Shown here: piece by piece, positions 70-64,000 of the stretch
How the letters are laid out: every line of letters starts with the position of its first letter
Numbering within the stretch: the first letter of the stretch is position 1
From: Sphagnum magellanicum
Taxonomy: Eukaryota; Streptophyta; Sphagnopsida; Sphagnales; Sphagnaceae
NCBI GenBank assembly: GCA_021904315.1
Contig: CM038912.1
Span: 3,249,061-3,313,060 of the forward strand
Reading direction: 5' to 3'
DNA: 64,000 bases
Program-made: the position numbers and the translations under genes
Notes under the pieces: model-generated
Told to the model about the DNA's origin: nothing
The model's database searches: none
What the model saw: only the letters and a program-made list of their open reading frames with translations

Positions 70-1854
70 TGGATCACACCAGTTCATGATTTGAACCAGC
101 AGTGCACTTCAAGTAAGCCTGACTTGGTCATAATTTTCTTTCATGGCATAGGCCTTGGGAAAAATTATGAATGGAAGGAAACATGGACATCCATAACCAG
201 TGATGGCGAGCGTGTATGTTGGCCACAAGAGTGGTTGCCAGCAGACTTGGCCAGTAAAAATGGTGTTCGGATTCTTTCTCTATCATATGATTCTGCTCTT
301 CTTGGTGCAAATGAGGATGTGACAGAGATTGGAAAAAACCTCATCCAGAGCTTGGTGTGCAAAAGGTATGCCAATCTTATCCTGAATATCTTGTGTACAA
401 ATACTTATTAGTAGTCTTGCTCCTAAAACCCATGCAAGCATAACCACTGTCATATGACACATGTAAACTGCCCTTGAAATCTGTCTTTATTTGCATTGTC
501 AATCTTGTAAGATGAAGTTGGGCATGGATGCCATTATAGTTATGTCAAAGACATTGTAGCAAAGTCCATAATTATATGTTCAAGTAAAGATTTAGGCTGT
601 TTTACCTGAGGATGGTGTCCCCAAATTTGAAGAATTAAAAAAACCTGATATTGGCACCTTTGACCCTTTAAAGGCCATCCTTTAATTGGTTAACTCTGAA
701 TAGTAATTGCATTCTATCACATGTCAGTAAGTAACAAATCATTGATAATGTCCAGAATCTAACGATACTTATGCAATTGTTGTAGATTCATTTGATGTTT
801 GAAAATGACACTGTCTAATTTCATTCCGGATTTTATTGATAACTTGGTCTGTATCATGTGATCTTGGGTATACAAATTGAGTGGGAGTTTTAGAATTGCA
901 CATTTATCAAGAAGGTATCTTAAACTGATGGCAGTAATGGGTTATGTGCAGTGAATATGAACCCCTTTGGGAGGCCCCAATTGCATTAGTTGGTTACAGC
1001 TTCGGAGGTCTTGTTGTCAAAAGCTTGGTGGTTGAGGTTGAAAAGCGTGCTAAGCAAGCTCGTGTTGAGAATAATCTGGAGAGAGCAGCAAAACAAAGTT
1101 GCCAAAAGTTTTTGGGGAATCTAAAGGGGACCATATTTTATAGCGTACCGCATGCTGGTGGTAGAGAAGATTTCAAAGAGTACTTTATTTGGGAATGCAA
1201 AAAATTCAATGCATCCAAGAAGAAGCAAATTACTAAGTCAGGCCTTTTGAGAAGTATGGATTGTTTCAATCAACAAATGGCATACCTTACAGAAGATTTT
1301 GACATTGCTGTAGAACCAAGCCTCATCATATATGCATTTGGTGAAGGATTGCCTGTTCCAGAAGTGGTAAGCTTTTCATTCAAAACCTTAGCTATGTATC
1401 AAGGTGCATTTCATTCCAGATGTGCAAATTCACAGTAACTCATTGCATGTAGAAACTGGGCATCCAAGTTCTGGAAACGTACTAGTTTTCAAGTCCTTTG
1501 GGGAGATGGAGGTTGGTTAGATGGCAGTGAAAAAGTTTTAAAGTTTGAAAAGAGGCCTAATAGTCCCAAAGGGGTGAAGAGACACTCAATCATTCTTCCA
1601 GGTTGTAGGCAAGCTTAACATCAATTAATATTGTTTAGCTAATGTTCAAAATATTTTTGTGAATACAGGGATCTGTTTTAGTGCCATATGCCTCAGCTCA
1701 ACAATTGGCACGCAGAAACCATTACAAGGTTGAGGATGCTGACCATTTGACGATCTGCAAGCCATCTTCCAAGAATGCCATAAACTACAGCCTACTGAAA
1801 GATGTTCTTCTGACTATCATGAAGGGAGTTCAAACACAACCCACCCTCAGATGA
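70..1854 (+). CDS. SERAC1-like alpha/beta hydrolase, copy 1 (5' partial)
   Basis: Three exons are visible: 70-365, 952-1366 and 1669-1854 (stop TGA 1852-1854), with junction phases 0, 2 and 0 and GT-AG borders. They encode about 298 residues; earlier exons must lie left of the window. The first exon carries the oxyanion-side strand (IIFFHGIG) and the block CWPQEWLPADL typical of plant SERAC1-like proteins. The second carries the nucleophile elbow GYSFGG followed by LVVKSLVVEV, and the third carries DHLTICKP, whose His fits the catalytic base. SERAC1-family proteins are lipase-like serine hydrolases, the animal one acting in phospholipid remodelling; the plant substrate is not known to me. No stop or frameshift interrupts the exons, so this copy looks functional. 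A degenerate paralogue lies 3.3 kb downstream in the same orientation. The exon borders are inferred by reading and by their agreement with copy 2. Confidence 0.75.
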
Positions 1855-4059: not shown

Positions 4060-4960
4060 CAATTTAGTATGTTGAACATTTATCATCCGTAGGTTTACAG
4101 GTGTGATGTTGAACTCCGAGTTCATTTTCTGAGAAGTTTGTGGAACATTTCCTGTTTAAATGTTGCTGGTTTGAACTTCGATCCTTTTGGTGTGGTCCCA
4201 CAGTTTGAGGAATGTTCACCAGGTGTTACTGTGAACTGAATTGAACTGCGGGTTCATCTTTTGTTGAAGATTTTCCTAATTTAACTGTTGCTGGTTTGAA
4301 CTTGCCATAAGGGTTAATAGTAGAGCCATTCCACGTTGAGCTGCACTTGTATAATTAAGCAGTGTATTCACTTCTATGCCTATCGGGTTCTAGTTTACAA
4401 GAATTTGTGTTACCAACACTCCATAGGATGCTAGCCAATTCTGAAACTTTGGGTTGAACACTAGTCTAGTAATTGTCTACCAGGTGTTTTTTGAGAACTT
4501 TGTTGAACACTTTCTATTTTAGCTGTTGCTGATTTGAACTTGCCATGAGGGATAGAACCATTACATGATAATGTGGACTTGTATGTACCTCTATGCCTAT
4601 CAGGTTCTAGTTTGCAAGATTTGTGTTACCAACACGTTGTAGTTTGCTTGCCAAATCTGAAAAATTGGATTGATCACTAGACTAAATGTTCACCAGATGT
4701 TACTGTGAACCATGAGTTCATTTTTCCAGAACTTTGTCAAACATTTCCTCTTTTAACTGTTGGTCATTTGAACTTGCTGTAAGGGGTAGAGCCATTACAC
4801 AATGGGCTGCTTGTATAATTAAGCAGCATGTTCACATCTATGTCTATCAGGTTCTCATTTGCACAATTTGTGTTAAACACCAATACTCCATAGGATGCTA
4901 GCCAAATCTGAAACATTGGGTTGATCACTAGACTAATTGTGCATGTTTTGAAGCTATCTA
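4060..4960. repeat. Diverged tandem repeat, period about 235 bp
   Basis: A block of about 235 bp recurs three to four times. Its marker TTTGAACTTGCC, followed by AGAGCCATT or a variant, starts near 4299, 4533 and 4768, and the companion phrases 'taggatgctagcca' and 'tctatgcctatc' recur at the same spacing. A related stretch (GTTTGAACTTGCCATAAGGG) reappears near 23576, so the unit belongs to a dispersed family. It immediately precedes the first surviving exon of hydrolase copy 2. Confidence 0.7.
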
Positions 4961-5631
4961 AAAAGTCCCTGATTGTGGAATGGTATTTGGGGTCTATTCT
5001 TACATGAGACTAGCAATGAATACTCAAGCCAATAGAATCTATGAAGTGTTACACAAGTCACTGCATAGTAAAATATTGATAGCATAAGATATATGGTCTC
5101 TTCCTTTGAAACCCTCAAGTTTTGAGTGTTTCACCCATTCATGTGTTGAAGATGCTAATTAATGTGATGATCAATAATATCAAATGTTTGTTTTCCACTT
5201 TGCAGTCAATTCAGCCAGTGCATGAACTCTTCAAGTCCACTTCGATGAAGCCTGGAATGGTTGTCATTTTTTCCCATGGCATTGGCTTTGGGAAACACAA
5301 TGAATGGAAAGACACATGGACATCACGAACTGCCAGTGGACAGCTTGTATGTTGGCCACAAGAGTGGTTGCCTGCAGACTTGGCAAGTGAAAATATTAAT
5401 AATGTTTGGATTCTTTCTCTATCATATGATTCAACTCTTCTTCTTGGTGCCAACTCCAATGTGATGGAAATTGGAAAAAACCTGATCCAAAGTTTGGTGT
5501 CAAATAGGTATTGCAATCTCATCTCAAATATCTCCTATGTAGAAACATTTACTCTTGTTCTTTATTTCAGATCAAGACCACCAGTCACCTTTTTATGTCT
5601 TTTCCTGAATCAAGTTTTGTGCCATGCTGAT

Positions 5632-5639
5632 CTATGCAC
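5632..5639. repeat. Left target-site duplication of hAT element
   Basis: CTATGCAC directly abuts the left terminus of the element and is repeated exactly at 9362-9369. An 8-bp duplication is the length made by hAT transposases. Confidence 0.9.
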
Positions 5640-5651
5640 CAGTGCTGTCCA
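5640..5651. repeat. Left terminal inverted repeat of hAT element
   Basis: CAGTGCTGTCCA pairs with the inverted right end at 9350-9361 at 11 of 12 positions. Confidence 0.88.
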
Positions 5652-5849
5652 CACATCCTACAGGATCCGGCCGCAGCCTGGCTGTTTTATTCCAGCTAAA
5701 TTCTCAGCCGCAGCCGTAGCCGCCCGATTTACCTAGCGATATCGAGCCGCAATCGCAGCCGCCCACCACCACAACATTTCAGCTGTAGCCTTCTCCCTGC
5801 ATCATTGTTTTCATCATATCCGTTCATGTGTTTATAAAAAAATGTCAGC

Positions 5850-8110
5850 CTACTGTGAACGGTCCAGGTCCTGATTGGAGTGGAGGTAGAGGAGGGCGTT
5901 CAGTGTGTCGGGCTTCAACGCGTTGTGCTTGTTGGTCCGCGTATTGCCGATGGACGAGAATGTACATTCTGGCATCGAACTCGAAGCCAAAATGTAGAGT
6001 ATGGCACAAGCGACGCGAGCTAGAATGGGAAAATTGGCGGACTTGATTTTCCACCATGGCAATAGGCCGACGTCATGCTTGACTTCGCCATTTGGTCGAG
6101 CTTTTTTACGTGTATCCTCCTGAAGCAAAACTTTCTTGTCGCTTTTGTCAGCCTTGAGCAAGCGATACGAGGCCAACTCATGCTCGATAAGGGCCTCGAG
6201 CTGGGCTGCCTCGCCTTGCTCATGGTCGTTGTTGCTCTCCAAAGAATCGTCGTCTCTGTCATCTCGACTAGGGCCGACGTGGACAAAGACAGTGCGCGAC
6301 TTCTTGGCGTGGATCTTCTTTGCCGGTAGTGGACGCTTGTCACCAGACTTGGACACCGCCATCTGCTTGGGTGGGCCAACCTTACGCATAATGTCCTTGA
6401 GGTAGAGCAGGCCATGGTTGATCAGCTATTGAGTGAAGCCGCAATCGAGCAGGTGGTTCTTTTGCAACAGATCCAAGTAGGTGGCGGCAGTGTGGAGCGG
6501 CTTAAGGAAGTATTTCTCCTTGAGCTGACTAAATAGGAGTGCCTTGATGGGGCCAATCTCGTCACTGTTAGCTGCAATGGTCACTTTCTCGTCGTTTGCA
6601 CCATCGACGATGATGGGTTCAACTTGCGGTTGGAGGTGGGCCATTAGTTTGGCAAACCACATGCCGATGAGATGAATGGTGGGCATGAGGAACGGCTCCA
6701 AGGACTTGCTAGCCAGCTTGAAGTAGTGCAGTAGTCGAATAAGTTCAATGAGCAATGGCTTCAAGATGCACTCGGCGCACTCTTCCTGTTTCCTCTTTTT
6801 CAGCAGCTCGATGGATGTAGTAGTTCGACGACCACAAACTGCAACATGATGAGGAGACCATTAAAGCGCGTTACCACGTCCTACTTCATCTTGTTATTCA
6901 ACTTCTTGTTTAGGAATGTCTTCTTCATGTACGTGACTAGCGCCTTTGCATCATCGATCGTGTCAAAGACCAACTCGGACTCTTCGTAGAAGAGGTAGGT
7001 CGCTAGCTGCTTAACACCGCCCACCACGCGGGTTTGCTTCCGCAGCACATAATTGATACATGTCGACAGGTGATGGCAATAACATAGGTCCAGCTCGAAC
7101 TACGACAACATTCCTTCTGCTCCGTTATTGTTCGACGCCACATTCGACTTGACCACCACCTACTAATCCGCCGCCTGAACCGTCACCTCCTCCTCCTTCC
7201 AGGATATGAACAGGCGGACATTGTTAACAAAGTCGCGATGAATCGCTAGCGCGGTGTGGCTCGTGCCTTCGCTGAACTCATCACAAGACACGACACGAAC
7301 GTGCATGACCCAATTATCGTCGATCATGTGCAGGGTGTTAGCACTATATGCCATCTATGTGGCGTTGTCCGTCCAAATGTTAGTGGAGAATGCAACGCGC
7401 CCATTGTCAATGAAATGCTTGCGCAAAATGACTTGTAGCTTCAAGACACCTTTGTCAAATCGGACCATCGTATTACGCTTGACGATCTGTCGAGACTGCA
7501 GCAAGTCTTGGATGAGCAGTGGCGTCTTGCTGGCAAAGCCAATGTCCAGGGCGGTCTAGATGACGTTCTCGAAGCCTGCGCCCTCCACCGACGAGAACGA
7601 GCGAATGTCCCACGAACACATGTTGACGAAGGCATTGGTCATGTTGTACTTGGCGGAGTCGGTTGGCATGTCGCGCTTACTCACCCAAACGGCTAAATTG
7701 TTCAAAGAAAAAACTACAATAGTCGCACGTGAGTGGGTGTGGCCATTCATTGACGACATGCCATCTCGCAAGTTATATACGTAGATACTGAGGCAAGTGA
7801 GCTTGATGCAGGCGCACATGTACACCGTCTTGGTCCGCCCCTTGCCATCCACCTCCACATCGAGGCACACCCACTTGCCATTGGCCTTCATGACCACCTA
7901 GCCCATGCGATCCCATAGCTTGTTGGTTGATGGTCAATTTTTCGACGTAAAGGGTATCATTGCATACTACGGGTTCTTGCTAGTCAAATCAACGGATATC
8001 TTCTTCTTAGTGTCATCAAGCGACTCGAAGCACTGCATGATGTGTTGTGCCAATCAAGACACAAAATTTGAGAATGTTGATCTCAAAGTCAAAAACTTGC
8101 ACTAGGAAGT
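5850..8110 (-). pseudogene. hAT transposase, degenerate
   Basis: Pieces of one transposase appear on the - strand in shifting frames. The C-terminal dimerisation domain lies in 5850-6389: LLPWWKIKSANFPILARVA, then a variant of the SER-type motif (ECTFSSIGNTRT) and a LKPDTLNALLYL tail. Upstream, 6426-6764 has the KPLHTAATYLD block that precedes that domain. The segment 7163-7354 has HMIDDNWVMHVRVVSCDEF, the catalytic-core strand seen in hAT proteins. The segment 7556-7897 resembles the N-terminal region after the BED zinc finger. At least three frame changes or stops separate the pieces, so no full-length protein can be made. The gene lies inside the element defined by the ends at 5640 and 9361. 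Confidence 0.8.
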
Positions 8111-8283
8111 AGTGAGCACCATATGCTACTCTGCAAAATGCGCTGCAAAGTAGCATTAACTTTGGAGTTTGAACTCTAGTACTAACTTGTAAGGTTGCCA
8201 AGGCGGAATATCTTGTTTTAATGACGCTAATTTGGCTTCTTTATAATAAATATGCATGACGCTTTGAAAATTGATACCAATCA

Positions 8284-8421
8284 GGACATACTCTTTGAAT
8301 AACCGCCGCAACTGTAGCCGCCCATTGAGGGACATACTCTTTGAATAACCATCGCAACTGTAGCCGCCCATTGAGGGACATACTCTTTGAATAACCGCCG
8401 CAGCTGTAGCCACCCATTGAG
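8284..8421. repeat. Three 46-bp tandem repeats in the hAT element
   Basis: Units beginning GGACATACTCTTTGAATAAC start at 8284, 8330 and 8376 and differ at only a few positions. Each contains a GCCGCAACTGTAGCCGCCC-type core resembling the subterminal motifs at both ends of the element, so they may be additional transposase-binding sites. Confidence 0.85.
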
Positions 8422-8819
8422 GTGCACAGTTGCCTACACCCGGCCGTTGCTAAAAATCCTGGCCGCAACTGCAGCTTGACGCGCTCCCAAGTCACGGGGT
8501 GAAACCCACTTGAGGGTTTCACAAAGTCAAGTTGCAGAAAGTTGAACTTGGTAGCACGCTCCCGGCTTCCAACTCTAGAAAGGGGTAGAGGGTCGAATTG
8601 GGAGCCCCGGGATTAGACTAGGAAGAGGGACTAGCTTAGCTTGTGTGATTCTGCATTCAAAAAACCAACCCCACGAGGTTAGTTTAGCATTTGAGACACC
8701 TTTTGGTGTTAGGACTTACCACGGGCACTTGGACACACAAGACTCACCACAGCCCGGACTCGAGGGAAGCCACCACCTTCCCCCATATAGTATTCTCTGC
8801 AGCTCGCCGCCGAGGCTAC

Positions 8820-9250
8820 ATCCAAATGGCACAAATTCCCGGGACTCCCAAGTTGGAGTCCCGAAATTGTCCCGAAATCGTCCCGGTTGGAGTCCCGGGA
8901 CTTTGGGAGGTCATATCTTCTCGTTCTGACCTCCGATCGCGACGAGGTCTGAAGCATAGTTGTAGCCCTCGTCGAGATCTTTCCAACGCCGTGTAGTACA
9001 CCCGAATCGGACATCGCAAACTGGTCGATTCTCGACTTTTAGTGGTCGGGAGTCAAACTGCCAGTTTGACTCCCGGCCCTTCTTTTGCCCATAACTTGGG
9101 CTGCAGATGTCCGAATTGCTAATGCGAGGGCATTTTCGATATCTACGTTTCAAGAGCTTTCTAATGACACCAAGAACACCCCAATGCGAGGTGTTTTGCC
9201 CCTTGCTGTCGAGCTCTGAACATTCGGGAGTCCTAGAGGACTCCCAACCT
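8820..9250. repeat. GC-rich segment with nested palindromes
   Basis: GGGAGTCC and GGACTCCC recur many times in both orientations between 8840 and 9246. A near-perfect 29-bp palindrome occupies 9047-9075 (14-bp arms CGGGAGTCAAACTG around one base), and a shorter one lies at 9227-9246. The phrases 'cccataacttgggctgcagatgtccg' (split here as a description, 9087-9112) and 'aagagctttctaatg' resemble untranslated stretches common in plant retrotransposons, so this may be a nested insertion or captured sequence inside the hAT element. Confidence 0.6.
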
Positions 9251-9361
9251 CCAACTTTTCCAAGTGTTGGGCTTCACCCCCACACTTGGCCAAAGTGGGG
9301 TTGCGACACAGCTGATTTGCGGTTGCGGCTGCGGCTATTGGCTAGTTGTTGGACTGCACTG

Positions 9362-9369
9362 CTATGCAC
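9362..9369. repeat. Right target-site duplication of hAT element
   Basis: CTATGCAC directly follows the right terminus and is identical to 5632-5639. Confidence 0.9.
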
Positions 9370-10909
9370 TACTGATGTTTGAATCTGTTCATTTCATGCT
9401 TCAACCTTGAAATATGAAATTGGGCATGGTTGATGTTGAAGTTAAAAGATATTAAACCAAAGTCCAATTTCAACAAGTTTATGTGGTGATGATTTTTTGT
9501 GAATAGAATGTTGGATGCTTGCTTTCAAGATCATAATACAATAGGGATTAATCCATGTAGTTACATACTATTTTCAAAAACTTTCACCATATGGCAATAC
9601 CAATTACAAGTCCTTTGTATAACAAGCTTTATAGGATTTCATTGGTAAACTTGTATGATTTAATTTGGAAAGAGATTGACTTGGACAATGTTCATAGTAA
9701 GGTGGTTGCAAGTGTTATGTAAAACTAGTCCCATGGGGTGCAAATGAAGTCATCATTAATTAATGGTAGTGATGATTTATGTGTAGAAATTATAAAAGCT
9801 ATTGGGAAGCCCCAATTGTATTGGTTGGTCATAGGTTTGGAGGTCTTGTACTCAAAAGCTTGGTGGTTGAGGTTGACAAATGTGCAAAACAAACTCACAA
9901 TGTGAGTGATATGGAGCTGTGAGTGCAAGAAAGGTGCAAATTGTTTTTGAGTGATCTGAAAGGGACAATTTTTTATGGTGTACCACATGCTGGTGGTGAA
10001 GAAGCATTCAAAAAATACTTGGTTTGGTGATGCAAACAAATCATTACTGCCAACATGAGTCAGATCAAGAAATCAGGCCTTTTGAAAAATGTGAAATCAT
10101 TTGACCGACAAATGGCGCAGCTTTCAGTAGATTTCAGATTGACAGTTACAGACAGCCTTAACATTTATGCATTTGGGGAAGGATTGCCTCTCGAACCAGG
10201 GGTAAGCATTTCATCTAGAAACCTTAGCTATTTTAACTCCTCTTCAACAAAACATTTTGGCTTCTAAACCTGTGTGCATGATTTCTATTTCAGCTTTGAA
10301 ATTTCCAAAAGTCCTTATCATGGGTTATAAGGATGTATGCAAGAAGGAATTGGGTGCAAGGTCTCCATATGTGCCATTCTTGGTCTCTACATCACTTGTC
10401 ATTTGCAATATTGCCTACAATTGTTTTTGTGGTTGTGTGGTTGTGATCAATTTTAAAATACTAACCAAACTTCACTTCATTACCGCAGTAAAAGGGGGTG
10501 GGGGATTGGGGTTGGGGTTTGCTTGGTTGGTGTGAAGAAACAACCAATACTTTGATTGCAGGCAAATTTGAAAACCATTCTTCTTCCATTGATTTTTTCA
10601 AATTGACCTTTGTCTATGCAGGAACCAGTTTTGGTACCATATGCTTCAGCTCAACAATTGTCATGGAACAATAATTACAAGGTTGAGAATGTGACTCATT
10701 TGACAATCTGCAAGCCAGCTTCAAAGCAAGCTGCAAACTACAGCCTATTGAAAAACTGTCTTGTTGAAATTGGGCAGGCAGTTCAAACACAAACCACCCC
10801 ATCCTTGCTTCAGGATAAGCATGTCGTGAGCCATGCAATATCCTGCGAACAACCTCCTTCTGAAGAAGCATCCACTTCCTACTCAATCCCTGAGTTCAAC
10901 TTAAGGTAG

Positions 10910-40822: not shown

Positions 40823-43485
40823 AAGGGCAGGGAGGAGGGAAAGAGAAGTTTTTTTGCAACCTGTCCTGACAATTGGATGATCAGCTTTTACATTAATAGT
40901 TGCATGTGAAGTAAGCTCTTCTTGGCCAGATTTGTAAGTATGTGGGTGGGCGCTTGATTGACATGCAAAAGGGATTTTTGTGTCGCCTTTTATGGTGTCT
41001 TCTTGATCTTTGTTTGAGAATGGAGTGAGTGTTTGAAGTTTGAACTCCGTGACTAAGTGTATCATTTCCATAAGAATCATGACGAGGAAAGCAAGCTGTG
41101 TCTGTCTTACAGCTTTGAAAAACTTGTCAATTACTTAATGATTCATTCAAGAACCCATTCAAGCTATTACCAACCCATTCTCAATTGGAAAAAGATTTGG
41201 ACATAAAAGTTTGGTTGAAAGTTGAGACAAGATTTGGATAGATCTTGTTTTTGGATTCACAAGCATGAATTTTACTTTGCCATTCCAAGTGGTTAGAAGC
41301 TTTATATTATCATTCTCATTGTTTTGTATTTTTAAGTATGCACAAACTCAATTAGGTAGTAACTCCAAGTTATTTGTTGCATGTGTTGTTTTCCATGCTC
41401 ATTCACAATAGTTTCAAAATAAACCTTGATTAAAAGTCTTGCCCAATTATTCTAAACTTATAACATCACTATTACTGAAATTTTTGGAAAATAATGTTAT
41501 TCATAATGATGAATTAATTAACATGCGGCCGATGCGATGGATATTTTGGAGGTCAGAATTTAGTTGCCCTTAAACTAAGGTGGGTATAACACTAGATCCA
41601 ACCCAAAGGGCCTTTACCTCTTTGTTGATGGGTATCCAGCAAATATCACTATTCCATGTACTTAGTTTCTGGATATGCTCCCAACTACCAAATTCAAGTT
41701 GAGTCAAACATTTTTATGTTCGCAAATTTCAAGATATAAAATATGTAAAGTGGTTTTCCGGTTTTCATTTGCCAAATTTTGAAAATTATGAAATTAAAAA
41801 CACCAGATTTCTATGTGATGTTCTAGTAGATAGCCAAAATAATGAAAGAAGGATGTTCAAACTTTTTTTTACCAAAGTCCATTTTGACTACATCACAAAA
41901 GTGGGTGTAAAAAACACTAGTTGAATCACACCCAAAGTTGGAGGATTATATGGAAAAGTTAAGTTTTAGAAATTGGCATATTTGAAGCATATTTATCATT
42001 TTCAAAACCAACAATTGAAAACCAACAAGGACAAAGAAGGTTTGCCCACAATTCTTCTATGGACTTTTAGTGCAATCTCCATTTGGGAGATAGATTTCAT
42101 GCTTGAAATAGCTTGGGGATATTCTCCGATTTAATATAGATTCATAGCTAATGTTAAGTTGATGTTAAGAGAGGCAATTCTTTTTTTGCATTCAGATGAA
42201 GACTATTAGCTAACATGAAATCTTAGATGACACATGATGTTAAGTGGGTGTTAAGTGAACGTGAACTTGACATTAATTCTTTTGAAAACATAGATCTTGA
42301 AATAAACAAACAATGTTTGGTAACAGCCCATAAAGGGGGTTATTAAGTCAATGTTACGTTAATAATGTGTTTTTCCATGGTTTTGCTAGGTGTGAATGAG
42401 TAAAAAAATTAATTAATTAATTTGTAAGTCAATGTTAATTAACATGGGTCATTTTTTTTTTAATGATGTTATTTAAATGTTAGCTTACTTAGCACCATAG
42501 AACTTAGCACTAGGCTTGATTGTAGCTTAAGATTGTTTCATTACAAAATTTAAAATACAAATCACAATACAAGGTGTGATGTTTGTTAGGCCTCCCATAA
42601 TTTCAAGCCCTAGTGTTACACTCATATTTGAAAGTTCATAGTTTTCTTTAAATGATTTAGTTACTTTGATTTATAGGTTTCCTTTTTTTTAACATAAGTT
42701 TACTATAATGATTAATATTAATATGGATTTTTTCTTCCACTTCATGTTTTTAATATTCTTTTTCAATCATAGTTATGTCTAAATAGGAAAGTTGTTACTT
42801 GTTTATAACACCTTAAGCCTTATTAAATCATAACATTAACTTCACACCATTCCTCATATTGATAATACAAACATATTATTCCTAAATAAGTTTTTTCTAA
42901 TTCTTCAATTTTATGTGCACTATAAACTTTTTAAGATACTTCATTTTAGAACATGCATGTAAAATAAAATAAATTTTGATATTCATGTGTCATGTATAAT
43001 ATGTTTATCAAGTCATGTGATTGAAATTTATTTATTTATTTATTTTATCATGAGAAACAAAGTCCACGATCATATTTATAATATGTAACAAAAACATATT
43101 TACAAATTTAAGTGTCTAAAGATACATTGTAACTATTTATAATTGCAAAACAAATTATGCATTACATTGCACATGTACATTACCACATATATTTGAATCC
43201 AAACCATAAAAAATTCAATACAATTATTCGATAACTTTTGATGTCATCAATTGCAAAATATAATGATTATAATGTCCATTTTTGTCCAACGCATTGTACT
43301 TTTACCCTTTTTTCTTCTATTCACATGCAAATTTTTAAATCAATTACACATCCTCCTCCAATTCCCCCATTGAGCTCCCCAACTATATTTTGTTAATTGC
43401 CAAATTCTTGAAGGTGGAATATCATGAGTGATGGCATGTAGATGAAATGGCATGCATTTTAATATGAACAAGTGTGTTCAAATTC

Positions 43486-43526
<41 letters not shown>

Positions 43527-44078
43527 GACAACCATCATTGGAGCTAGTTTAGGGGGGAGCAATTTTAGGTTATCATAAATTGTCTTTTGGAATGACAAAT
43601 CCAAGAGATCATTGTGCATTGAAACCATTTCAATTTTTTCTTTCCATATCATCATCACATGCAAAAAAAATGTTTTTTTCCTCCAACACAAAATTGCCAC
43701 ACAATATAAATATTTAACAACAAAAACAAACATAAAATTGTCTTGTAAAATGAATATCATGCAACACAAAACACAAATTAATATCTTTTATGATGCTCAA
43801 AACAACAAATAAACTCAAAATTTTGTTTGCAAAATCATAAAAACAATGCAAAACACAAAATTGTCTTACAACATTAATATCAAATAACACAAAAACATAG
43901 ATTGTGGAATGTAACATGGATATCAAACAACACACAATTTACACAACAAATTATAATGAATTTTTTGATTGTATAATCTCATAAAATTATTGTCAAAATG
44001 TGATGAATGAACATATATACACAATTTTGTCATGACATATTTGATGAGATAACTTCACAAATTGTCAAAACATGATGG

Positions 44079-44113
<35 letters not shown>

Positions 44114-47100
44114 TTTCATGACAAATTTGATCCCATAATTTCACAAATTGTTAAAACACTATGAGTAAACACAAGCACAAAACTTGTCATGACATGATTA
44201 TAAACATGTGCAAAATTGTCACAACACAAAATCATGATGTACAAACATTGTAAATATAAAATTGTCATGACATTATCAAAGAACAAGAAAAAAATTGTCA
44301 TTGAAATAATAAAAAAGTATTCATAACATCATGATGGGTAAACACAAATTGTGATGTTCAACATGATTTTTAACATCATAAATTCCCACATTTTTTTTTC
44401 GATATTAACCAACTTCATGATTTTAAAATTGTAAGTTTGACACCCACCATACAAATACCCACCTCACAAATTGTAAAGAGGAAAATTGATAATTAATTGA
44501 AATTTGAAATCTATATTAATGGAAGTGAAAATGATTTCATGAAAAATTTATATGATCATGGAATTTTGTTTTGATATCATAGGATTCAAGGAGCAAATGA
44601 AAATATATTAATATGATCTTATGTCAATTTGTCGCTAGTAATGTGGAACAACACAAAACCCAAGTTGTTATATAGTTGAATGTGGAATAGAATGCTTGAA
44701 CCCCAAAAAAAGGTAATTTGATTTTGAATGGTTAACCAAACATGGGTTTCATGCTTCTTTACATTACCAATGATGATTGATTGATGTAAGGTTATAACAT
44801 TATATTATAATTTTCATTTGTTTCTTGAATCTTAATATGCCAAAAGATCATATAAAATTTGAATTTTCAATGAAATCATTTCCACTTCTATTAATTTGAA
44901 ACATGAAATTCAATCTTCACCTATTGAAAATATTTATCAAAAAAAATTTAATCAATTATACCAAGAAATTCATGTGAAATCATATTAATTTCAAATATTT
45001 AAAGTGGATTAATTTTATTCAATGTGACCTCTTGTTGCTTGGGAAAACAAAAACATTCAATTTTCACATGTGACAATTGAAATGTGAAAATATGAAATAT
45101 ATATATGAAAAGGTTTCCGTATGTTTGCAATCAATTCCACATATATTAAGGCATCCAAAAGGATGACTTCTTGAACCTAAAGCTTGTCTACCTAATGCAC
45201 TATTGTCACTTGAATAAAAGCCTACATATTAAAATCTCCACATATGGAGGCAAAATATATGCCATTAAAAAAAGTTCTATTACCTCAAAGTGTACCAAAT
45301 ATCTTTAATTTTAGGTATTTTTCATTATAAGTAAGTAAAATAATAATTTATGTCTATAAATAAAATGCCATTTTTAGCATTTAAAGTTTTTTTCTTACAT
45401 AACTAAAAGCAATTTTCTTGAAATAGCATTGTCCAATGATTCCAATAAGTAAAGTAATGAAAGCAAAAAAAAGACGTATAAGATGTTTGGGATATTTAAA
45501 AAGAGATATTTTCATATGCAAAATGCTTGCATGGAAGTTAATTTTTTATGAAAGAAATCTAACTTGATTAGTTGGACATCTTAATAATGTCAACCTTAGA
45601 TCTTACATAGTAAGGTAAACAAAGAAATATTAGTGTTAGTCATGTGGAAACCTTGTGAAAAATTTATGAAGTGATTGGAGAGGATGTCACATACTCACAA
45701 TTTTTATTTTCTAAAATTATGATTCAAATTAGCGAAAAATAAAAGTAAAACATAGTTCTCATCATTCAACATCCTATTAGAAAACTTTTCATACAATTTT
45801 TTCAATTTCCTTGGTAGCTTGGTAGAAAAAGAATTTGACCCCACATGTATCATAGTGTTTTCCAAAACTATGAATGATTCAAAATGCCACCATAGTGTTT
45901 TCCAAAACATGCTTCACAAACCAATGTATGATTAAAAATGTCACCTTTAGTTTGCAACCAATGTTAAGACAAGACAAGAAAAACAAGTTGTGCATGATGC
46001 CAAGGCAACATGGTTCAACCACATTCCTAAGATGAGTTAGGAATATGTGTGAGAGTCTAAAGGACAAACCCTCGACATTCCTAACTTCATTCTCCCATTG
46101 GAAGTTAGGATTATCACAAATTTTTAATTTTTGAGGTAGGATATGGGGAGCAAACCTTGTTGGAATTAACTACTCCTTAAATCATTGGAGAGATTTTGAA
46201 AAAGATTACAACAAGATGGGCTGGTGTGCCCAAAATAAAGTCATTTCCTAAGTTGTCAAAACCTTTGATAGATTGGGATAAAAACGTCCAAAATGTTTCC
46301 GAATATCAAATGTCTCATTCATCTAAAGTGCAATTAAAAAGAACAAGTATTATTCAAATTGGGAGCTTGATACACATTTGGAAAGATCTTTTCAAGGGCC
46401 ATAAGAAACTAGGGTTGCATGTTTGATTAAGTTTTTTTTGTTTTTAGAATTATGGTCATTTGAAGTTTCAAAACAAAGTTGTCTCAAAATTGGGAATGTG
46501 TCTTGGATTCAAGAATATGCCACTTTGACGGAGGTCCCACAATGTCCTAACAAAACAAATAAATTTACTAGAAATTTTTTGGCATAAGGTTAAAAAATCA
46601 AAGAGTGTATAAAATGAAACCATTTTTGAAGGGTCAAAAAAAGGAAAAATCACTAGATTCCTATATTTAAATATAAAAAATAACATATAAAAAGAAAATT
46701 AAAAAATTATGCTTCATATCTAGTTTATAGTCAGCTTTGGTTAAATTTCATATGGATGATCACCACTTTTTTTACATCTTATGATGGACCACTGGCACTT
46801 TAGTTACAAAACAAAATTTCAAAAGGGACAATGGTACAAAATATACCATAAGGAAGAAGGTGGTCTCTCCTTCAGTTTGAGCCACAACGAGTGAATGCAA
46901 ATCCATAGTTATCCCATGTCCCAACTCTAACTCCAATTGCATTAGCTTTTCTTTTTGGTTTGGCTAATTGATGTTGATCAAGAGATGAAGGTGAAGTACC
47001 ACATCCTAATCTCATCCCAAAGCTCCCATGCAACCCTCTTGTCACAACATGCGGAGTTAGGAATAAACCCAAAATCAAAGTGTCTTTTGTGAGGCATTGT

Positions 47101-48508
47101 GTTTAGAACTATCTTCACTACCATTTGGCAAGGTTTTGGGGGCAAGTCACAACAATCTTCATAGAACAATGCATTATTAAAAACCTCTTCACATGGTAAC
47201 ATCCAAACCAACATTTTCCTCAAACACATAAGTTGGTGCTTTCATTAATCAATATTACAAGCAAAGTAAAATTCACTTAAAATCAGCCTCTTTTTTATTG
47301 GAAAAATCTTGCCAAAAAGAGATTTATAAATTTATAAAATGAAATGATTTCGGAAGGTTTCAATCATCAAAAGTGAGGGGGGGAAAAAATCCAGATTTTT
47401 TTAATTTGGTTCTTAACGTGTAGCCATAAAAATACAAGGTGGATTAAAGATTTTATTTTTATATTTGGTTTATAGCTAGATGTGGCTAAATCTTTGCGAG
47501 GATGATTGCCAGTGTTTCTACATCTTCCTATGGATCATTGCCACTTAGGCCATAAAAAAATATTATTAAATAAAAAATTGCTTGAAATAGGTCTTATATG
47601 ACTTTTAATTATAATTATTGGTCATTAAAAAAAAAAATGTATGTCCTTTTTTGTTATGTCCATTTTTATCTTTGTCATGCATTGCCATTAAAAACATTAC
47701 ATGCTTATGGCAAATCATTTTATGTGTGCTTCTTTTAGGCTAGAAGAACTACATCCTAACCAACCTTTTTTTTTCTGCGGCATATTCCTTTTGGAGGCGG
47801 AATCATCAAATTTCAGGACAAAAAAATTTGGAATTTTTTTTACACCAAATTTCTACTTAGATTTTAGAGGGGGCTCATTTTTTGTACTAGCATTTTGAAT
47901 TTTCAGACAGACAATATAAAGATGTCACCATTTAATGCAAAATCCCTCCTGGGATGTGTAAATATGATACAACATTAGAAATTTGAAAAAATAAAAACAA
48001 GCACTTGTATGTTATGTTATGTTCAAGCTCCTTTGGTGCCACAAACCATCCCACAAACAAATCTCTATATTCAAATACCTACTTGGAAGGAGGGTTTTTT
48101 TGGTTCAATTTTGTTATGTAGCCCCACACTGGCTATCATCAATAAGTGAGATTAGCCAAATTTGGCTATAGGTCAAAGAGGAAAGTAAAATTTTAAAAAG
48201 AATCGTGCTATATTATGGCAACTGTTGGAACCTATTGTCTAAACATGGCAATTTCAACACAAAACAAATCCTTGCAATCTTGCAACTTTGGTGCATTTTT
48301 TTTACAAAAATCCTAAGTGTGGTCGCACTGGATAATTTTTTATCACAAAGTGGTGAAAATGTGCCAAAAGAGCAAACATTGCAAGTTGGAAGTTAATAAC
48401 TTGCAAAACATGAAGAAGGCCTTTGAGGTTCAAAGCTTAGGTGGCCAATGTTTACATCCAGGCATGATACCTTGAGGGAAGCAAATGAACTAACAAGGTT
48501 GGGAACTA
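40823..48508. other. Long AT-rich gene-poor spacer
   Basis: No gene was recognised. It holds a (TA)n tract at 43492-43523 and a (CA)n tract at 44085-44111. A region at about 43690-44350 has loosely repeated ACAAAATTGTC and AACACAAA motifs that looks like a decayed satellite. The block near 42110-42400 has several TTAATGTTAAGT-type motifs related in style to the MITEs at 22 kb. Open frames at 46196-46426 and 46872-47229 show no recognisable domain. Confidence 0.5.
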
Positions 48509-50180
48509 CACGGTGTATAAGTAGTGAAAACTCATAGAATTCTCAAAGTGATGGAAATGATAAATTGCTTCCCTCATTGCTGTGATTGCTCTACCAACTA
48601 TAATTCCTTGCAAATCACTTTGTGAAACTGTGTGGCAAAATGCAACAAATCTGCAGATTCTTGATGATGCACAGTGGGGCACCAGGAAAATGTGTTGTGA
48701 TGAGAGACCCAATGCATTGGCTATTGTTGTGGTTCTTGCTATGATGACACAAATGAATCAAATTTTCTTCATGAAATCATCTACTTACAACATTATGCAT
48801 GTCAAATCTTAGTATCCTGCACATACCCAACACCTGTCATTTGCCCCTGGCAACAATCTCTTTCAGTATGGCCCAGTTTCAACATTTTGAGGATGATGAT
48901 GGTTTGATCATCTACTACAAAAGGTTTGGAACTGATCCTTGTTCAATTTAACAAATGTGCAACCTAGCTGTTTCTCCACACGCTTTTTTCTTTCTCTGCT
49001 GTTGCATATTTTCACTGAAATCCTAGTATTGCACTTGCCAGCAGTGGCATAGATTTTTGCAGCAAATATATAACCAGCTGAATTTCCAGGATCCATCTTG
49101 ATAACTTGTTTTCCCCCAGCACACTCTCCCATTTCCACATCACCATGAATTCTGCAAGCACCACCAGGCAAGCCCATCATCATCCACACAATAGCACTCT
49201 TGCTTCACATGAGACGGTATTGACGGAAATCCTCTGGCTAGTGCAGCTGAGGAGAAGATCAACCATGCAAGAAAGAAGCATCTAGTGCTGCTCCACTCTT
49301 GCAGAAATGGTGTAAACACAAAGACAGGAATCAAAGTAACTCAGGACTTCTTCCACTAAGCCCACATGGCTGGCTACAAGCTGACAAGAAATCCAATGTC
49401 CATCTATCTATCTTGACACCTTTCACATGCCCCCCCCGCCCCCAACAGATTGACATTGCATGACTCAGGTGGCATCTTGTCAAACACTCTCAAAACATCC
49501 TTCTCCATGCTCCCACAACTGGCAATTACATATCAACAAGACTACTGCCCACAAAGATGTCAGATGCTTAACCACCTTGAGTGATCTGCTCATGAGGACA
49601 CTTGGACTGTTGGCATGCTAGTAGTACACTGGCACAGACATCTTTAGTGATGGGGTCTAGCCGCACACCTACATTCCACTTGCATTTGTCAAAACAGTTC
49701 CAATTCCTTCTGTTGTTGGCCAAATTTTTCACATGTCCCAACATCATAGTAGTCCAAGAGATAACATTGAGTAATCGCCATTTTAAAGAACACTCCCCAA
49801 GCATTATGCATTCCTGCACATTCGGGATACATGTCAAGAAGGCTACAGTTGCCCACAAATCCATCAGACTTGTGACCACTTTGAATCATCTGTTCAGGGA
49901 TGACATGCCTGACACCTTGATACGTATGTTGGCACACAAAGCATTCAGGAAGTCCAAGAAAGTGACAGTATCTGGCCGCTGCACATGACCTTCTTCCAGC
50001 TGCAATTCTTGAGATAGTTCCAGTGCCTTCTCTTGCCAATTTACTTGTGCAAATACCACGGCATTCCAACAAAATAGATCATATTTGTGGTGTTGTGTGC
50101 TCATCTCATTGAACACTCTCCAGACATCAAGCTATATGATACCACATTTGAGAACATACATGTCAACAATGAAGGCTGCT
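48509..50180 (-). pseudogene. PPR-DYW organelle RNA-editing factor, decayed
   Basis: The whole C-terminal half of a plant PLS-type PPR protein can be followed on the - strand through several frames. PPR repeats come first, at 50180-49390 (FIVDMYVLKCGII, YDLFCWNAVV, RPDTVTFLDFLNAL, KSDGFVGN, LLDMYPECAGMHNAW, NVISWTTMM, FDKMPPESCNVN). The E domain follows at about 49240-48905 (ACRIHGDVEMGE, KMDPGNSAGYIFAAKIYATA, EKQLGCTFVKLN), and the DYW domain at about 48780-48509 (IANALGL, FCHTVSQSDLQGIIVGRAIT, FHHFENS). The final DYW tripeptide is lost and stops and frameshifts are frequent, so it is not functional. DYW proteins specify C-to-U editing sites in chloroplast or mitochondrial transcripts. Its presence implies an ancestor with organelle RNA editing. 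Confidence 0.85.
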
Positions 50181-53100
50181 TCTTACATATGTGTGCTATA
50201 TTTTGGCAACCTGCTGGAACCTAGTGTCTAAAATATGACAATTTCAGAATTTTTTTTGCCTTGAAATCTGATAACTTTAGTGTTTTTTTTCACAAAAATC
50301 CTTTGTATGAATCCTTTGTATCTTTGATAATTTGCCAAATTATCACCACTTGGCAAAAACAAAATTTGTCGCCAAGTGGTGATAATTTGCCAAAAAACCA
50401 TAATTGGACTGTCGTTTGTTGATTTTTTTTTAAGGGTTTAGGGTTTAAGGGTTTAGTAACCAATAGTAGTTCACAATAGTGTGTAAAAATAATTGTATTA
50501 GAATTCTAGCCAATTCAGAAAATATTTTACGAAATTTAACTTGTTGATCATGGATGTTGATGCTCTTTAAAAGCATGTTTATTTTCATCCATAATGAATA
50601 TTTTGGAATTTGCTCAAGAAAGGTCCTTGTATCATGGTGGGCCTTTCCGAAAGGTTTAATCAATGGTTCCATGACATCACCCTCAAATTGGTATAAATCA
50701 TAAGTACGTGTAACCCAAATTTATTAAATTTTAACTCAATTCACATCGGTTTGAAGTTTGATTCTGCAACCAAGCATGGTCACCCCTTATGTTAATAATT
50801 CATGTTCATATTTTTCCATGTTATGAATAAATGAATTTTGGTAGGTATGCAATTGTAGTAGTGTAGTTTCATCTTTTTGTTCATATTTTTAATGTTTCTA
50901 CACAATTGGGTTTACAATATAGGCTTTGGTGTTGTTGTATGTACAAGTTATTTAATTCAACATGGAATCTCATGAGCAATTTGAAGTTGAAGAATACTTT
51001 TTGTAATACCTTTTATTGGGATTAGTGATAAGGAGTGAGCTGCATGTCACAACCATATAAAACCTACTGTATATGGTGGTCCTACATATGTTGAAAATAA
51101 AAAGAGAGAAAAATTTCCTATGGTATTTGGATATTATGTGTGTGAATATTCGTTATATAAAAGAGGAGAGATATTGTGCCTACACATTAAGAGGGCTCAT
51201 GCCTACCTACGACCCTCCCCCTCCTAGACCTCGCGATCTTTGTATTAACAAATGGAAATTCATTGCAAAGGAAAGAAAGCCACACACCCACAACAGGCAG
51301 CCAAGCTCACAACGGGAGCATGACATAGGATGGACTTGATTGAGGATACACTTGCCTCACCAAGGAATATGAAATCATGGGTTGTGATTTTTGACACCTT
51401 TTAAGGCAAAAGAATGGGAAATCTCATGAATGCACAATTTTGTTACCTAGTGTGTTTGTCAATTTTGATTTGAAAGCATTCAACTTTTTGTTTCTTTTTG
51501 GAAGGATTTTGAGATAGATTAGCAACACAAAAAGCAAAAGCATGTTAAAAAATAAAGTTTTGCAAAAGCACAGTTACTGTTATATTGTCTTTGGAGTCAA
51601 AAACCAAAACTTTCTATTTTGGAACACAGTATTTTTGAACCCGAAAACACCAATCGAAATTTCTTAGAGTATTTGTAGGATGTCTTATTCAATGGATTTT
51701 TTCCTCCGTAACAGGTGAGGCATTGTGAAAAACAAAATGCTCACTCACGTGGGCATTTCATTTTCCAAAATGTCCTATCTTTTTTTATTATTATTTTTCC
51801 TTGTGACGATTGGCTAGGTATCAAAAAATTATGTTAGTGGGTTCCCTATGTTGATTATTGAGGTACATTCTTATTTCGCTTATTTCAGGAATGCCCCACC
51901 CCAAACACATTACCTATCTTACACATTTCTATTATTTTCAACAAACTATGAGCTACCTATGATGTGGTCTCCTAATAGTATTTTTATTCTTCAACCTTTT
52001 ATATTTTAAAATTTCTTTTCATGTCTATTCTCTTGTAAATGAAGAAATTACATAACACAAAAAAATAATCTTGAACATGAAACTAGGTGTAGTATTAAAC
52101 CCCTCCCATTCAATAACTATTTGATTTAGCAAGAATTTGTTTAACCAATACAAGCTTTTTTTTGCCTTGAAGACTTCAACCCAATTTTCCAAATACACAT
52201 TAATTCAATGCCTTAAATTTAAAATCAATAAAGAATTCAATTATCATCATAACAGATTTCAGCCAAGTTTTTTTCAAAGAATTATCACCAATTCTTTACT
52301 AATCATAGGGGTTGCTATTTCTAAACTTCAAAAAGAACTAAATTTTTGTAATAATTTGTTCAATTATGATTTTCTTCAGTTAGGGATTTGCAAAGGAGCC
52401 ATCCAAAGCCAACATTTGTCATCATTGCATGGAACCTATTTTCAATATCAATGTGCTAAATTATTCCACCCTAGGTTTAGGGTTTGCCTCTTTAATTGAT
52501 CTTCACTGTCGCTTTAGCTAGATCCTGACCTTGACTATGAGGAGGTTGTTGATGTTTTCACTAGTCTCCATTGCACCCTTTGTTGCCTTTATCTATGTAC
52601 TTCAAAAAGCTATCACCAAAAACTTTTGCTTTCATGAAGGGGAGCTCCAACTTGCAAGTTTCCCTCCTCCAAAGTCCCAAGGTTGTGGCATAATGGGGTA
52701 ATGGGACTTGGTGTTTAATTTATGAACATTAGGCATTTTTCTATTGAACATTAATTATCATTTGAAGCTTGCAACTTGCAACTTGCTTATGAATCATGAT
52801 GTTCATTGCTTGTAAGACTTGTGTTGGTGCACAATTCATAATACAAGTTGGAGCCCAAATCATTTGTGAGATTTGGTTTTGGAATTAGAAATCAGGAGTG
52901 ATCTACACGATTAACAAAGATTTATAATGCTTCTCATTCAACTTTTGATTTGGTCATTCAATTCTAAAGTTTGGACTTAACCATTATCATGGCACTTGAA
53001 TAGTTCAACTTAACGGTGTGTTGTGCATTAAATAAACATGTTGCACAACATTTCCTCCTTGTCATTTTTTTTATTGTATACTTGTAGCACTATTATTAAT

Positions 53101-53246
53101 ATGGGTTGTGTTTCACTAAGGTTTTTTACTAAAAATGTGTAAAAATGAAAAGCATCCAAAGTTTATCTTTGGGAACAATTTGTGGTATTGGAAGTCACAA
53201 TATTGTTTAATAGAAAGTTCAAATTCAAAAACATCATGGAGTCCTA
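50181..53246. other. AT-rich spacer
   Basis: No gene was recognised. Near 50205-50300 there is a fragment of the GTCTAAA-type repeat family seen at 22.9-23.6 kb. The segment 51165-51215 (TGCCTACACATTAAGAGGG) resembles motifs at about 33035 and 34090. Confidence 0.45.
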
Positions 53247-53823
53247 ATGTTTAAGGACCCTAATTATTTCATACAAGTAATTGATGACAAGGAAAATCCA
53301 AATTTCTTGGGCAACTTGAATGAAGCAAGGAGCCCAAATCTATGGTGGTTGGATGCAAGGAAAAGGGTGAATACAAAAGGTTGTGGCAATGCAACATTGA
53401 AATTGAAAACTACCCAATTGCCTTTCAAGGGTGGAATGAATAAGCAACCTGTTGGTTTGTTGAAATTTGTTGCGCACACTTCAACTATTGGGGCCTTAAA
53501 TGGTGGAATCCCCCTTGAGGACCAAGATACACATCGTACCTTTGGTAAGCCTTCCAATCAAGAAGAAATGGAATGTAACAATGCCTACTGTAAAAATGCA
53601 TATGCTAATCACATTAGATAACAACGATGTTTCCAAAAGATCATTAGATATGGGTTCGAAATGTTTTTTTAAACCAAAACCATGGAAATATAATGAAAGG
53701 TTCAAAGAGTTTCTACAAAAGAATCATGACCTTTTAAGTGGTGGTATAAAAAATTCAAGTGAATTAGAATTCACACGCACACACATATACAAAGGCCCAA
53801 AATTGTACTCACAATTTTTATAA
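53247..53823 (+). pseudogene. Unrecognised coding relic, one probable frameshift
   Basis: A 124-codon open stretch (53247-53621) overlaps a second frame that stays open to 53823, as expected if one protein were split by a frameshift near 53560-53600. The amino-acid composition is balanced (for example NLNEARSPNLWWLDARKR; KCFFKPKPWKYNERFKEF) and unlike the surrounding low-complexity DNA. I recognise no domain. A transposon-derived origin is possible but not shown, and chance is not excluded. Confidence 0.22.
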
Positions 53824-56800: not shown

Positions 56801-57709
56801 TGCACCACTTTCATTACCATAGTGAAAAAACAAATTGCCATGTTTTCCCAATTTTCTCCATCAACACATGGGAGTAAAATCAATTTTTTTTTTAAAATGG
56901 ATTAAGGAGGGGAAGAAGAGGAAAACAAGGGGAGGAAGAAGAAGATAAGGATCTAAAGAAGAAAAAAGGTGGGCAAACTAGACTATTTGCCACCTTGGGA
57001 AATTGAAAATAGTCCATCAAAGAGCACATATAATCAAAAAGAAGAAAAAAGGATGAAAGAAAGAAGAAAAATAGAAACATGGAAAGTCATAGAAAGAAAA
57101 AAGAAAAAGAAGAGAGCCCAAACTGTCTTGTTCCCCTCCCCCAAAGGTCACTTGATCTCTAACTGGCAATGCTTCAAAGGTCACCCAACACTAATATAAT
57201 TGGGGTAATTACTTCCTAAAATTACTCCTACCTTTTAAATAGATGATTTACCAACCCCCACCTTCTAAAAGGTGTTGATTGTTGTCATTCTACCTACCAA
57301 CCTAAATCATAGCTAACTAGTTGGTGTAATGTCCCAAGGGAAATGGTAATAAAAATGAATATTAATAAATTTTTTTACCAAGTTGCCCCTTTAATTAGAC
57401 TAACACCTAGGATAAGGCAAAATTAACTCTAGGTTAACAATACCTTCCTTGGTAACCAAGTCCATAGTTATACATGGGTATAAATAAAAGTAGGACCCCA
57501 TCACCTTCAATTTATTCAACATTAGTTTGAAGTACAATTTTACATCATAACCTTGTTATTTTTTTGTGTCTACCCTTTCTTGCTTCATTGTAATACAAAT
57601 TTGTTTGTACTTTGGTTTTGTATACTTCATGTTTTTGGTTTTAGCCTTTATGTTTTTATTTTGATTTATTTGTTTTATGTTTTGGATTTAGACTTGCAAG
57701 TTTTGGGCA
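53824..57709. other. AT-rich spacer upstream of the kinase
   Basis: No gene was recognised. A (CA)n tract lies at 54563-54583. The final 200 bp should contain the promoter and leader of the kinase gene, but no element was pinned down. Confidence 0.45.
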
Positions 57710-62500: not shown

Positions 62501-62849
62501 GTTTCACTTGTAAAATAAACACTTTAGTAAAAGACTAAAAAAAACATGATGATTGAATTTAAAAAGAAATCAAAATATTACATAATATGAAATCACTATG
62601 ATGATAAGTCTCCATGTGTCTTCATCTATACATTTATATCCTCCATATTTATGAATCCATTCAAATCAGGTAAGTCATTTGTGATATCAAGATTAGATAC
62701 ACAATGACACAAACAATTTAAAATGTCCATGTCAAGATAGAAATCTAAAACCTTTATTTCTTCATTGGTGTTTTCAACAAGATTTTTTGAATTTGCAAAC
62801 AAAGATCTTTCAAAATTAATTCACACATCTTCATTTTGAATTACTAGTC
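59591..62849. other. AT-rich spacer downstream of the kinase
   Basis: No intact gene was recognised. On the - strand at about 60750-61070 a stretch with several stops reads like a coiled coil (YWQMKQHWDDLAIQQEGW; KELQIAKAKAANKC), perhaps a relic of a transposon protein; the family is unknown. Confidence 0.4.
61371..61418. repeat. Perfect 18-bp inverted repeat
   Basis: ATCAATGGGAGGAGGGGA (61371-61388) is the exact complement of 61401-61418, with a 12-nt loop. The arms are GC-rich in AT-rich surroundings. Confidence 0.92.
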
Positions 62850-63560: not shown

Positions 63561-64000
63561 TCATGTTTGATTAATGTTAACAACAAGGCTAAGAGGAAGG
63601 TTGTAAACCCTAACCAAGTAAACAATCTGTGAGACCATCATATGGCCTTGTTTCTCCTAATCATTTGGAAGTTTACCTAAATGGTTGTTATAGGTTTGTG
63701 AAACCACCAATTAAAATGAAACCACATAAATGTTCTTGTCTGATTCATTGGCATCTTGAGCTTATCTAGCACTTGAGGTGTTATTTTTGTAAAAAAACCA
63801 ATGATGATTGGTTAAACAATTCTTGCATGGAGTGAAACACTTGCTTCCCACATTTTCAAAAATAACTCAATCAATTCATTTGTTTCTTCAGGAATACATG
63901 CCAATGGTGTCATGTGTTGAACTTAAGGAACAAACGTTTGTTGCCTTGCCACACATGCTTGAACATAAGCTTGAACCTCTCCATTGTTGGTGAACCATTC
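63561..64000. other. Probable upstream part of the transposase relic
   Basis: On the - strand, short frames (for example PQVLDKLKMPMNQTRTFMWF near 63730-63790) may be the helix-turn-helix to core linker of the same transposase, but stops are frequent and the family match is weak. Confidence 0.3.

Follow-up and report, generated by a model that had tools for sequence, protein, structure and literature searches.

We analyzed a stretch of 64,000 nt from the genome of Sphagnum magellanicum (GCA_021904315.1, contig CM038912.1), called here the window; coordinates are those of the window unless a locus is named. Of two tandem serine-esterase-like genes, one holds in its first intron (intron 1) a DNA element of the hAT superfamily; the element is interrupted by a retrotransposon long terminal repeat (LTR), and the family to which it belongs has decayed mainly by C-to-T changes (C>T), most likely at methylated cytosines. 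We consider this explanation as a whole (hAT insertion, star-like burst, nested LTR reduced to a solo LTR and C-to-T decay of methylation type) to be highly probable. An earlier note had described a complete, precisely bounded hAT element at this place. The hAT identity and the exact borders stood; ‘complete’ did not, as the segment contains a nested solo LTR of 832 bp. The hAT and the solo LTR inside it are both ordinary of their kind; the note had spotted the element correctly but had taken it as a single piece.

The hAT element and its sister copies

The copy in the window (the window copy) consists of the following features:

5632–5639, left 8-bp target-site duplication CTATGCAC
5640–9361, minus strand (transposase strand), element assigned to hAT from its ends, duplication and sister copies
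5640–5651, plus strand, left terminal inverted repeat CAGTGCTGTCCA
5669–5764, plus strand, left subterminal GCCGC-type repeats
5850–8053, minus strand, transposase remnant with ten in-frame stops, a frameshift near 6820 and the last stop at 5852
8284–8476, plus strand, right subterminal region, recurring in sisters: three 46-bp tandem copies (8284–8422) with GCCGC-type motifs, then 54 bp to the LTR
8472–8476, left 5-bp duplication CAGCT of the LTR, unbroken in sisters
8477–9308, minus strand, nested solo LTR of 832 bp, TGTCGCAACCCC...GCGCGTCA on the minus strand, with ends as in both LTRs of locus L017; missing from sister hAT copies
9309–9313, right 5-bp duplication CAGCT of the LTR
9309–9349, minus strand, remainder of the right subterminal region, parted from 8284–8476 by the LTR and uninterrupted in sisters
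9350–9361, minus strand, right terminal inverted repeat CAGTGCAGTCCA (inward reading)
9362–9369, right 8-bp target-site duplication CTATGCAC

The 8-bp duplication is perfect (chance estimate for identity at both borders 2.7e-5), and the terminal inverted repeats match at 11 of 12 positions (chance estimate 4.4e-6); these features, as well as GCCGC-type motifs at both ends, were found just as the earlier note had claimed. The lone mismatch is probably ancestral, because the sister copy L010 has the same two ends; the six sisters measured have one to three mismatches. There are three GCCGC-type motifs in the left 150 bp, five in the right 240 bp and one in the 2495-bp middle; enrichment at the ends is weaker in the sisters L015 and L016, with 11 and 6 motifs in their middles. 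The three 46-bp copies lie ∼900 bp away from the right tip. The length of the element is 3722 bp as found, and 2885 bp once the nested LTR is taken out together with one of the two CAGCT copies. An Rfam scan of 5000–10000 gave nothing at E<=0.5.

The assignment to hAT is made because the 8-bp duplication and the ends come together with the domain Dimer_Tnp_hAT (PF05699; E 2.4e-13, 50.1 bits versus a cut-off of 21.4) and with similarity to the Hermes transposase, the relative in PDB (C-terminal frame, E 6.7e-10; N-terminal frame with X at stops, E 6.8e-6). To proteins of bacterial genomes there was a single match (34% over 47 residues). With the hAT superfamily, in which Hermes of house fly is the best solved relative and Ac/Ds of maize the plant type, the element shares the 8-bp duplication, short inverted ends and subterminal repeats, along with the C-terminal dimerisation domain and small internally deleted derivatives (as described in the accessible parts of PMC3260210 and PMC10368747). 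It differs in the subterminal motif, of GCCGC type as against AAACGG in Ac and AAGT in Hermes, in the broken transposase and in the BED zinc finger, for which Pfam gave no hit at E<=1 in the window copy or in L015; as the other features hold, this is not taken to exclude hAT. The Hermes DNA-binding domain (PF10683) scored 20.6 in L015, with the cut-off at 20.5, and 17.4, under the cut-off, in the window copy. Open-access literature on hAT elements in mosses or bryophytes, Physcomitrium and Sphagnum, as partly listed in one library, gave no description of this family.

Searching the genome for sibling ends, a check proposed in the earlier note, did find sisters that share both the left and the right end type, so that the note's reading withstood the refuting condition it had set itself. 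A 169-bp query from the left end, with the duplication, matched 9 times at 8 places, and the right subterminal region 8 times, window included in both cases. Sister copies with both ends, labelled by genome locus, are L010 (2978 bp), L011 (2809 bp), L012 (2798 bp), L013 (2830 bp) and L014 (313 bp); a longer subfamily B contains L015 (4133 bp), L016 (4162 bp) and L039 (3789 bp). All eight are flanked by perfect 8-bp duplications, all different (shifts of up to 3 bases were allowed in border calls of L010–L016). L038 has the right end, the left end not being in the fetched stretch. The 313-bp copy (L014, 1999–2311) is an internally deleted derivative with a perfect 8-bp duplication, a form made by the family that resembles miniature inverted-repeat transposable elements. 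L010 carries, at 2851–2987 of its locus, several tandem copies of a stretch matching window positions 6453–6499.

The nested LTR and the order of events

The segment 8477–9308 begins with TG, finishes with CA and has CAGCT on either side and no inner domain; a Pfam search of five frames within it gave none over cut-off. Taken alone, such ends are weak evidence, a point against nesting: 85.5% of 200 shuffles had a TG..CA pair with a 5-bp duplication and equally matched ends, and for TG..CA with a 5-bp duplication in general the number in such a segment was at chance level (34 pairs versus 34.4 expected). As the ends are not significant by their own statistics, the sister copies were used as evidence. 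The 832-bp segment is missing from all nine sister right ends read (L010–L016, L038 and L039). In a genome search with the segment (5705 first-look candidates, 40 scored), 40 among the 79 matches listed, the window's own counted, covered it from 1 to 832. L017 has two LTRs with the same ends as the window LTR, 97.6% alike mutually and 89% alike to the window LTR; a stretch resembling a primer-binding site, TGGTATCAGAGC, adjoins the LTR, and frames for protease, reverse transcriptase, RNase H, integrase and chromodomain are located between the two. From this domain order we take the L017-type element to be of the Ty3/chromovirus class, and 8477–9308 is a solo LTR from an abundant family of this type. 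It resembles Ty3/chromovirus solo LTRs in TG..CA ends, in the 5-bp duplication and in ends equal to the LTRs of the full-length element; nothing notable sets it apart, its location being within a hAT. Six of the 11 fetched sister LTRs were solo with a 5-bp duplication. The full-length retrotransposon in L017 itself sits in an older related LTR of opposite orientation (L017, 519–968 and 7912–8154).

One could suppose that the whole 3722 bp is a single hAT, or a hAT with 832 bp of captured host sequence, and that the inner TG..CA arose by chance. The chance-level number of such pairs would agree with this, but we find it extremely improbable: the segment is missing from the sisters, recurs over its whole length elsewhere in the genome and, in L017, flanks a full element on both sides as its LTRs. 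Returning to the nested LTR, its absence from the sister right ends implies that the hAT was ∼2.9 kb long (about 2885 bp) when the LTR entered; the LTR arrived after the hAT insertion.

The host introns are as follows:

366–951, plus strand, intron 1 of the first hydrolase copy, GT..AG, without the element
5508–9786, plus strand, intron 1 of the second hydrolase copy, GT..AG, containing the element

Their lengths are 586 and 4279 bp; subtracting the element with one duplication brings the second down to 549 bp, and both the 549 and the 586 bp given in the earlier note were exact. The alignment of the two introns, another check that it had proposed, was significant over 474–568 of the first copy (95 bp) against 9379–9466 (score 57, reached in 0 of 500 shuffles). 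It starts 10 bp right of the insertion, and the first-copy intron has no element there. As this intron aligns next to the insertion point and lacks the element, an order with tandem duplication first and hAT insertion second is supported from one side. What weighs against it is that left of the insertion no convincing intron match was seen (equally high scores came up in 17 and in 89 of 500 shuffles). The earlier claim of an insertion after the tandem duplication and into non-coding DNA holds for the intronic site and the order, the intron homology being partial (∼95 bp, right side only). Dating by the host paralogue gives an upper limit only, and a loose one, as aligned exon stretches of the two hydrolase copies are 74–79% identical (21–26% diverged) and ∼95 bp of intron are significantly aligned.

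We suggest that a hAT of ∼2.9 kb, moving by cut-and-paste, inserted into the first intron of one tandem gene and made the 8-bp duplication. Later, a Ty3/chromovirus-type LTR retrotransposon would have inserted into the right subterminal repeats of the hAT, and LTR–LTR recombination may then have left one LTR.

Exon 2 of the second hydrolase copy (9787–10203) has two in-frame TGA codons and GHRFGG instead of GYSFGG; this copy looks like a pseudogene. Directly before it, at 4211–4940, there are diverged direct repeats with spacings of about 220–480 bp. Other genes of the window are, by domain, a trehalose-phosphate synthase and an MLKL-like kinase, a gene content that suits a land plant.

The transposase remnant and the C-to-T decay

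The internal transposase is dead, as the earlier note had stated. It has ten in-frame stops (first base on the minus strand: 7969, 7936, 7900, 7558, 7357, 7165, 7162, 7102, 6883 and 6428), nine of them TAG, one TGA and none TAA, and a 1-bp deletion near 6820 which is private to the window copy and missing in the six sisters compared. The transposase is also broken in all seven full-length sisters examined; no autonomous partner was found, as none of these seven, found via end-region queries, has an open frame spanning the transposase. The catalytic DDE residues of Hermes are, as we take them to be numbered, D180, D248 and E572, with the position of D180 counted in the printed alignment. The D180-equivalent is Asn in the window copy, L010 and L013, and Asp in L011, L012, L015 and L016. 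The C-terminal catalytic E is aligned in the window copy; D248 falls outside the alignments, and a candidate Asp for it is Asn in the window copy and Asp in six sisters.

Six of the stops are CAG or CAA in most sisters. Stop 7357 is CAG in three of six sisters and TAG in the other three; another stop is TGG in all six, and one more is CGG, CGA, TGG or AGG. Among private changes, i.e. substitutions unique to one of the five close copies (window copy and L010–L013), counted on either strand, C>T makes up 76 of the 80 (95%) in the window copy and 424 of the 498 (85%) pooled over the five copies, with 67–101 private C>T per copy. All 193 two-against-three splits among the five copies were C/T or G/A. 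The splits were even across the ten pairings (chi-square p 0.77) and conflicted as often as random ones (incompatible pairs 0.602 versus 0.600); for these reasons the family is star-like, with one burst followed by independent recurrent C-to-T hits at the same hot cytosines. The window copy is one of several near-equidistant copies, as from a single burst, and C-to-T decay destroyed the transposase independently in each sister copy. In the window solo LTR, compared with 11 close sister LTRs, 15 of 18 changes were C>T (CG 5/74, CHG 2/43, CHH 5/256, unclear 3/49; H stands for A, C or T). Host exon copies had no C>T excess (transitions to transversions 24:33 and 52:48). Polarising by subfamily B produced 53–67 apparent T>C/A>G per copy, as expected from a decayed outgroup, and was not used for rates.

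The earlier note had also seen the ends as preserved while the transposase was dead. The dead interior stood; selection on the ends is not required, because the decay is largely cytosine-specific and alike in sisters.

With nine of ten stops being TAG, none TAA, and CAG or CAA standing at six of these places in most sisters, one could ask whether TAG encodes glutamine here, leaving the transposase partly alive. We give this practically no weight: CAG and TAG are mixed among sisters in conflicting patterns, TGA makes up one of the stops, the six sisters all have TGG where the window copy has one of its TAG stops and GAG or AAG where it has another, the frameshift is private, the D180-equivalent Asp is Asn, and C>T strikes both strands alike, which is not expected from recoding. 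It is less improbable, though still unlikely, that the element was dead before insertion and was mobilised by the transposase of another copy. Stop 7357 is common to the window copy and three of the four close sisters, and the 313-bp L014, without a transposase frame, still acquired a perfect duplication. However, no tree structure is seen in the two-against-three C/T states, so that recurrent changes at hot CAG positions explain the sharing better, and among the close copies only the window copy has the frameshift and stops 7936, 7165, 7102 and 6428.

Sequence context of the decay and its possible meaning

Private C>T rates in the five copies depend on context (W, A or T; Y, C or T). They are 130/805 in CG, 60/310 in CAG+CTG and 32/147 in CCG; then 82/741 in CTH (CTC 33/233, CTA 18/143, CTT 31/365) and 27/452 in CAA; and 8/869 in CAC+CAT (CAC 4/394, CAT 4/475), 7/440 in CCA, 3/166 in CCC and 4/325 in CCT. 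Sites without clear context gave 71/540. The CWG and CG rates do not differ (p 0.21); the CTH and CAC/CAT/CCH rates do (p 1e-26, sites not being fully independent). The order is repeated in the sums over three copies of subfamily B: CG 87/955, CHG 68/830, CTH/CAA 47/1316 and CAY/CCH 15/1498.

Composition of the window is in part consistent with these contexts. The observed/expected ratio of CAG/CTG is 0.69 in the hAT, 0.49 in the LTR, 0.89 in genic 1–5.6 kb and 1.03 in genic 9.4–22 kb. It is strongly depleted at 42000–57600 (0.37) and 60000–64000 (0.24), down to 0.00 in the 2-kb bin at 44001; this intergenic depletion appears to be the same footprint as the hAT decay. For CpG the hAT has a ratio of 0.92 and the two introns one of 0.07, with values up to 0.86 in other 2-kb bins. 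In transposase codons NCA:NCG is 31:42 versus 27:97 for NNA:NNG in controls (p 0.003), and CG decay is therefore also present.

Divergence among repeat copies dominated by C-to-T is a likeness to both plant methylated-cytosine deamination and fungal repeat-induced point mutation (RIP), which in fungi is CpA-directed. That an active, repeat-directed mutation process like RIP, and not slow loss of methylated cytosines, caused the decay seems very unlikely to us. It would fit the 95% C>T of the window copy, the 193 splits without exception and the similar load in five copies. RIP differs, however, from the pattern seen here, where CG, CHG and CTH/CAA are struck on both strands; the symmetric plant methylation contexts CG and CHG suffer most while CAY/CCH are spared, runs of C-strand and G-strand changes are at chance level in all five copies (p 0.53–0.78), i.e. 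without strand clustering, which tells against a processive as well as a RIP-like mechanism, and the C>T share falls to 85% pooled and to 67% in subfamily B.

Methylated cytosines remain the most likely cause, as read from sequence context, and several observations weigh against it. Subfamily B has only 251 of 372 private changes C>T (three copies, where shared C>T can mimic T>C), L012 has 29 of 96 private changes other than C>T, and differences between the window LTR and the two L017 LTRs are mixed, with 26 of 73 being C>T or G>A. At stop 6428 the window copy has TAG where five sisters have GAG and the sixth has AAG, a difference that no simple C>T accounts for. In L038 (512 bp, outside the pattern-finding set) 11 of 15 changes were C>T, with deviating contexts (CAY/CCH 5/42, CG 0/10). 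The CCG rate is not under that of CAG+CTG, while CCG is methylated less than CAG/CTG in four flowering plants according to the accessible text of PMC5221884. Methylation as a step of the explanation is slightly less certain because of the CCG rate and of the spectra of subfamily B and L017, which do not affect the element or the nesting.

In the accessible parts of the literature, CAG/CTG methylation requires CMT3-type enzymes in Physcomitrella and Arabidopsis (PMC5221884); MET, CMT and DNMT3b methylate CG, CHG and CHH in P. patens (PMC6453930); DNMT3s are widespread in plants and lost in flowering plants (PMC11540031). Printed CHH preferences are CAA/CTA in A. thaliana and CAA/CAT in tomato (PMC5221884); a CTH preference is not given in these parts of the three papers. 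Titles and abstract beginnings of open-access papers on CHG decay, RIP in moss or plants and DNMT3 CHH contexts, as partly listed in one library, described no such footprint.

It is a tentative idea, which we hold rather improbable, that repeats here diverge mainly by C-to-T, with CG equal to CHG, then CTH and CAA over CAC/CAT/CCH, and so record long-term methylation contexts. As part of this idea, the CHH preference (CTC, CTA, CTT, CAA), unlike those printed for A. thaliana and tomato, is perhaps that of a DNMT3-type enzyme; in the boldest form, one could speculate that an active process raised the decay rate.

Part of the interest of this family lies in its clean, context-ordered and star-like C>T decay: five precisely bounded sisters that lack a tree signal show separate decay of each cytosine context, and such families could act as a recorder of methylation contexts. 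Raw divergence can overstate repeat age here, the window copy being 11–12% diverged from each close sister with only 21–33 transversions. If the C-to-T reading is true, dating of repeats by raw divergence would be strongly inflated.

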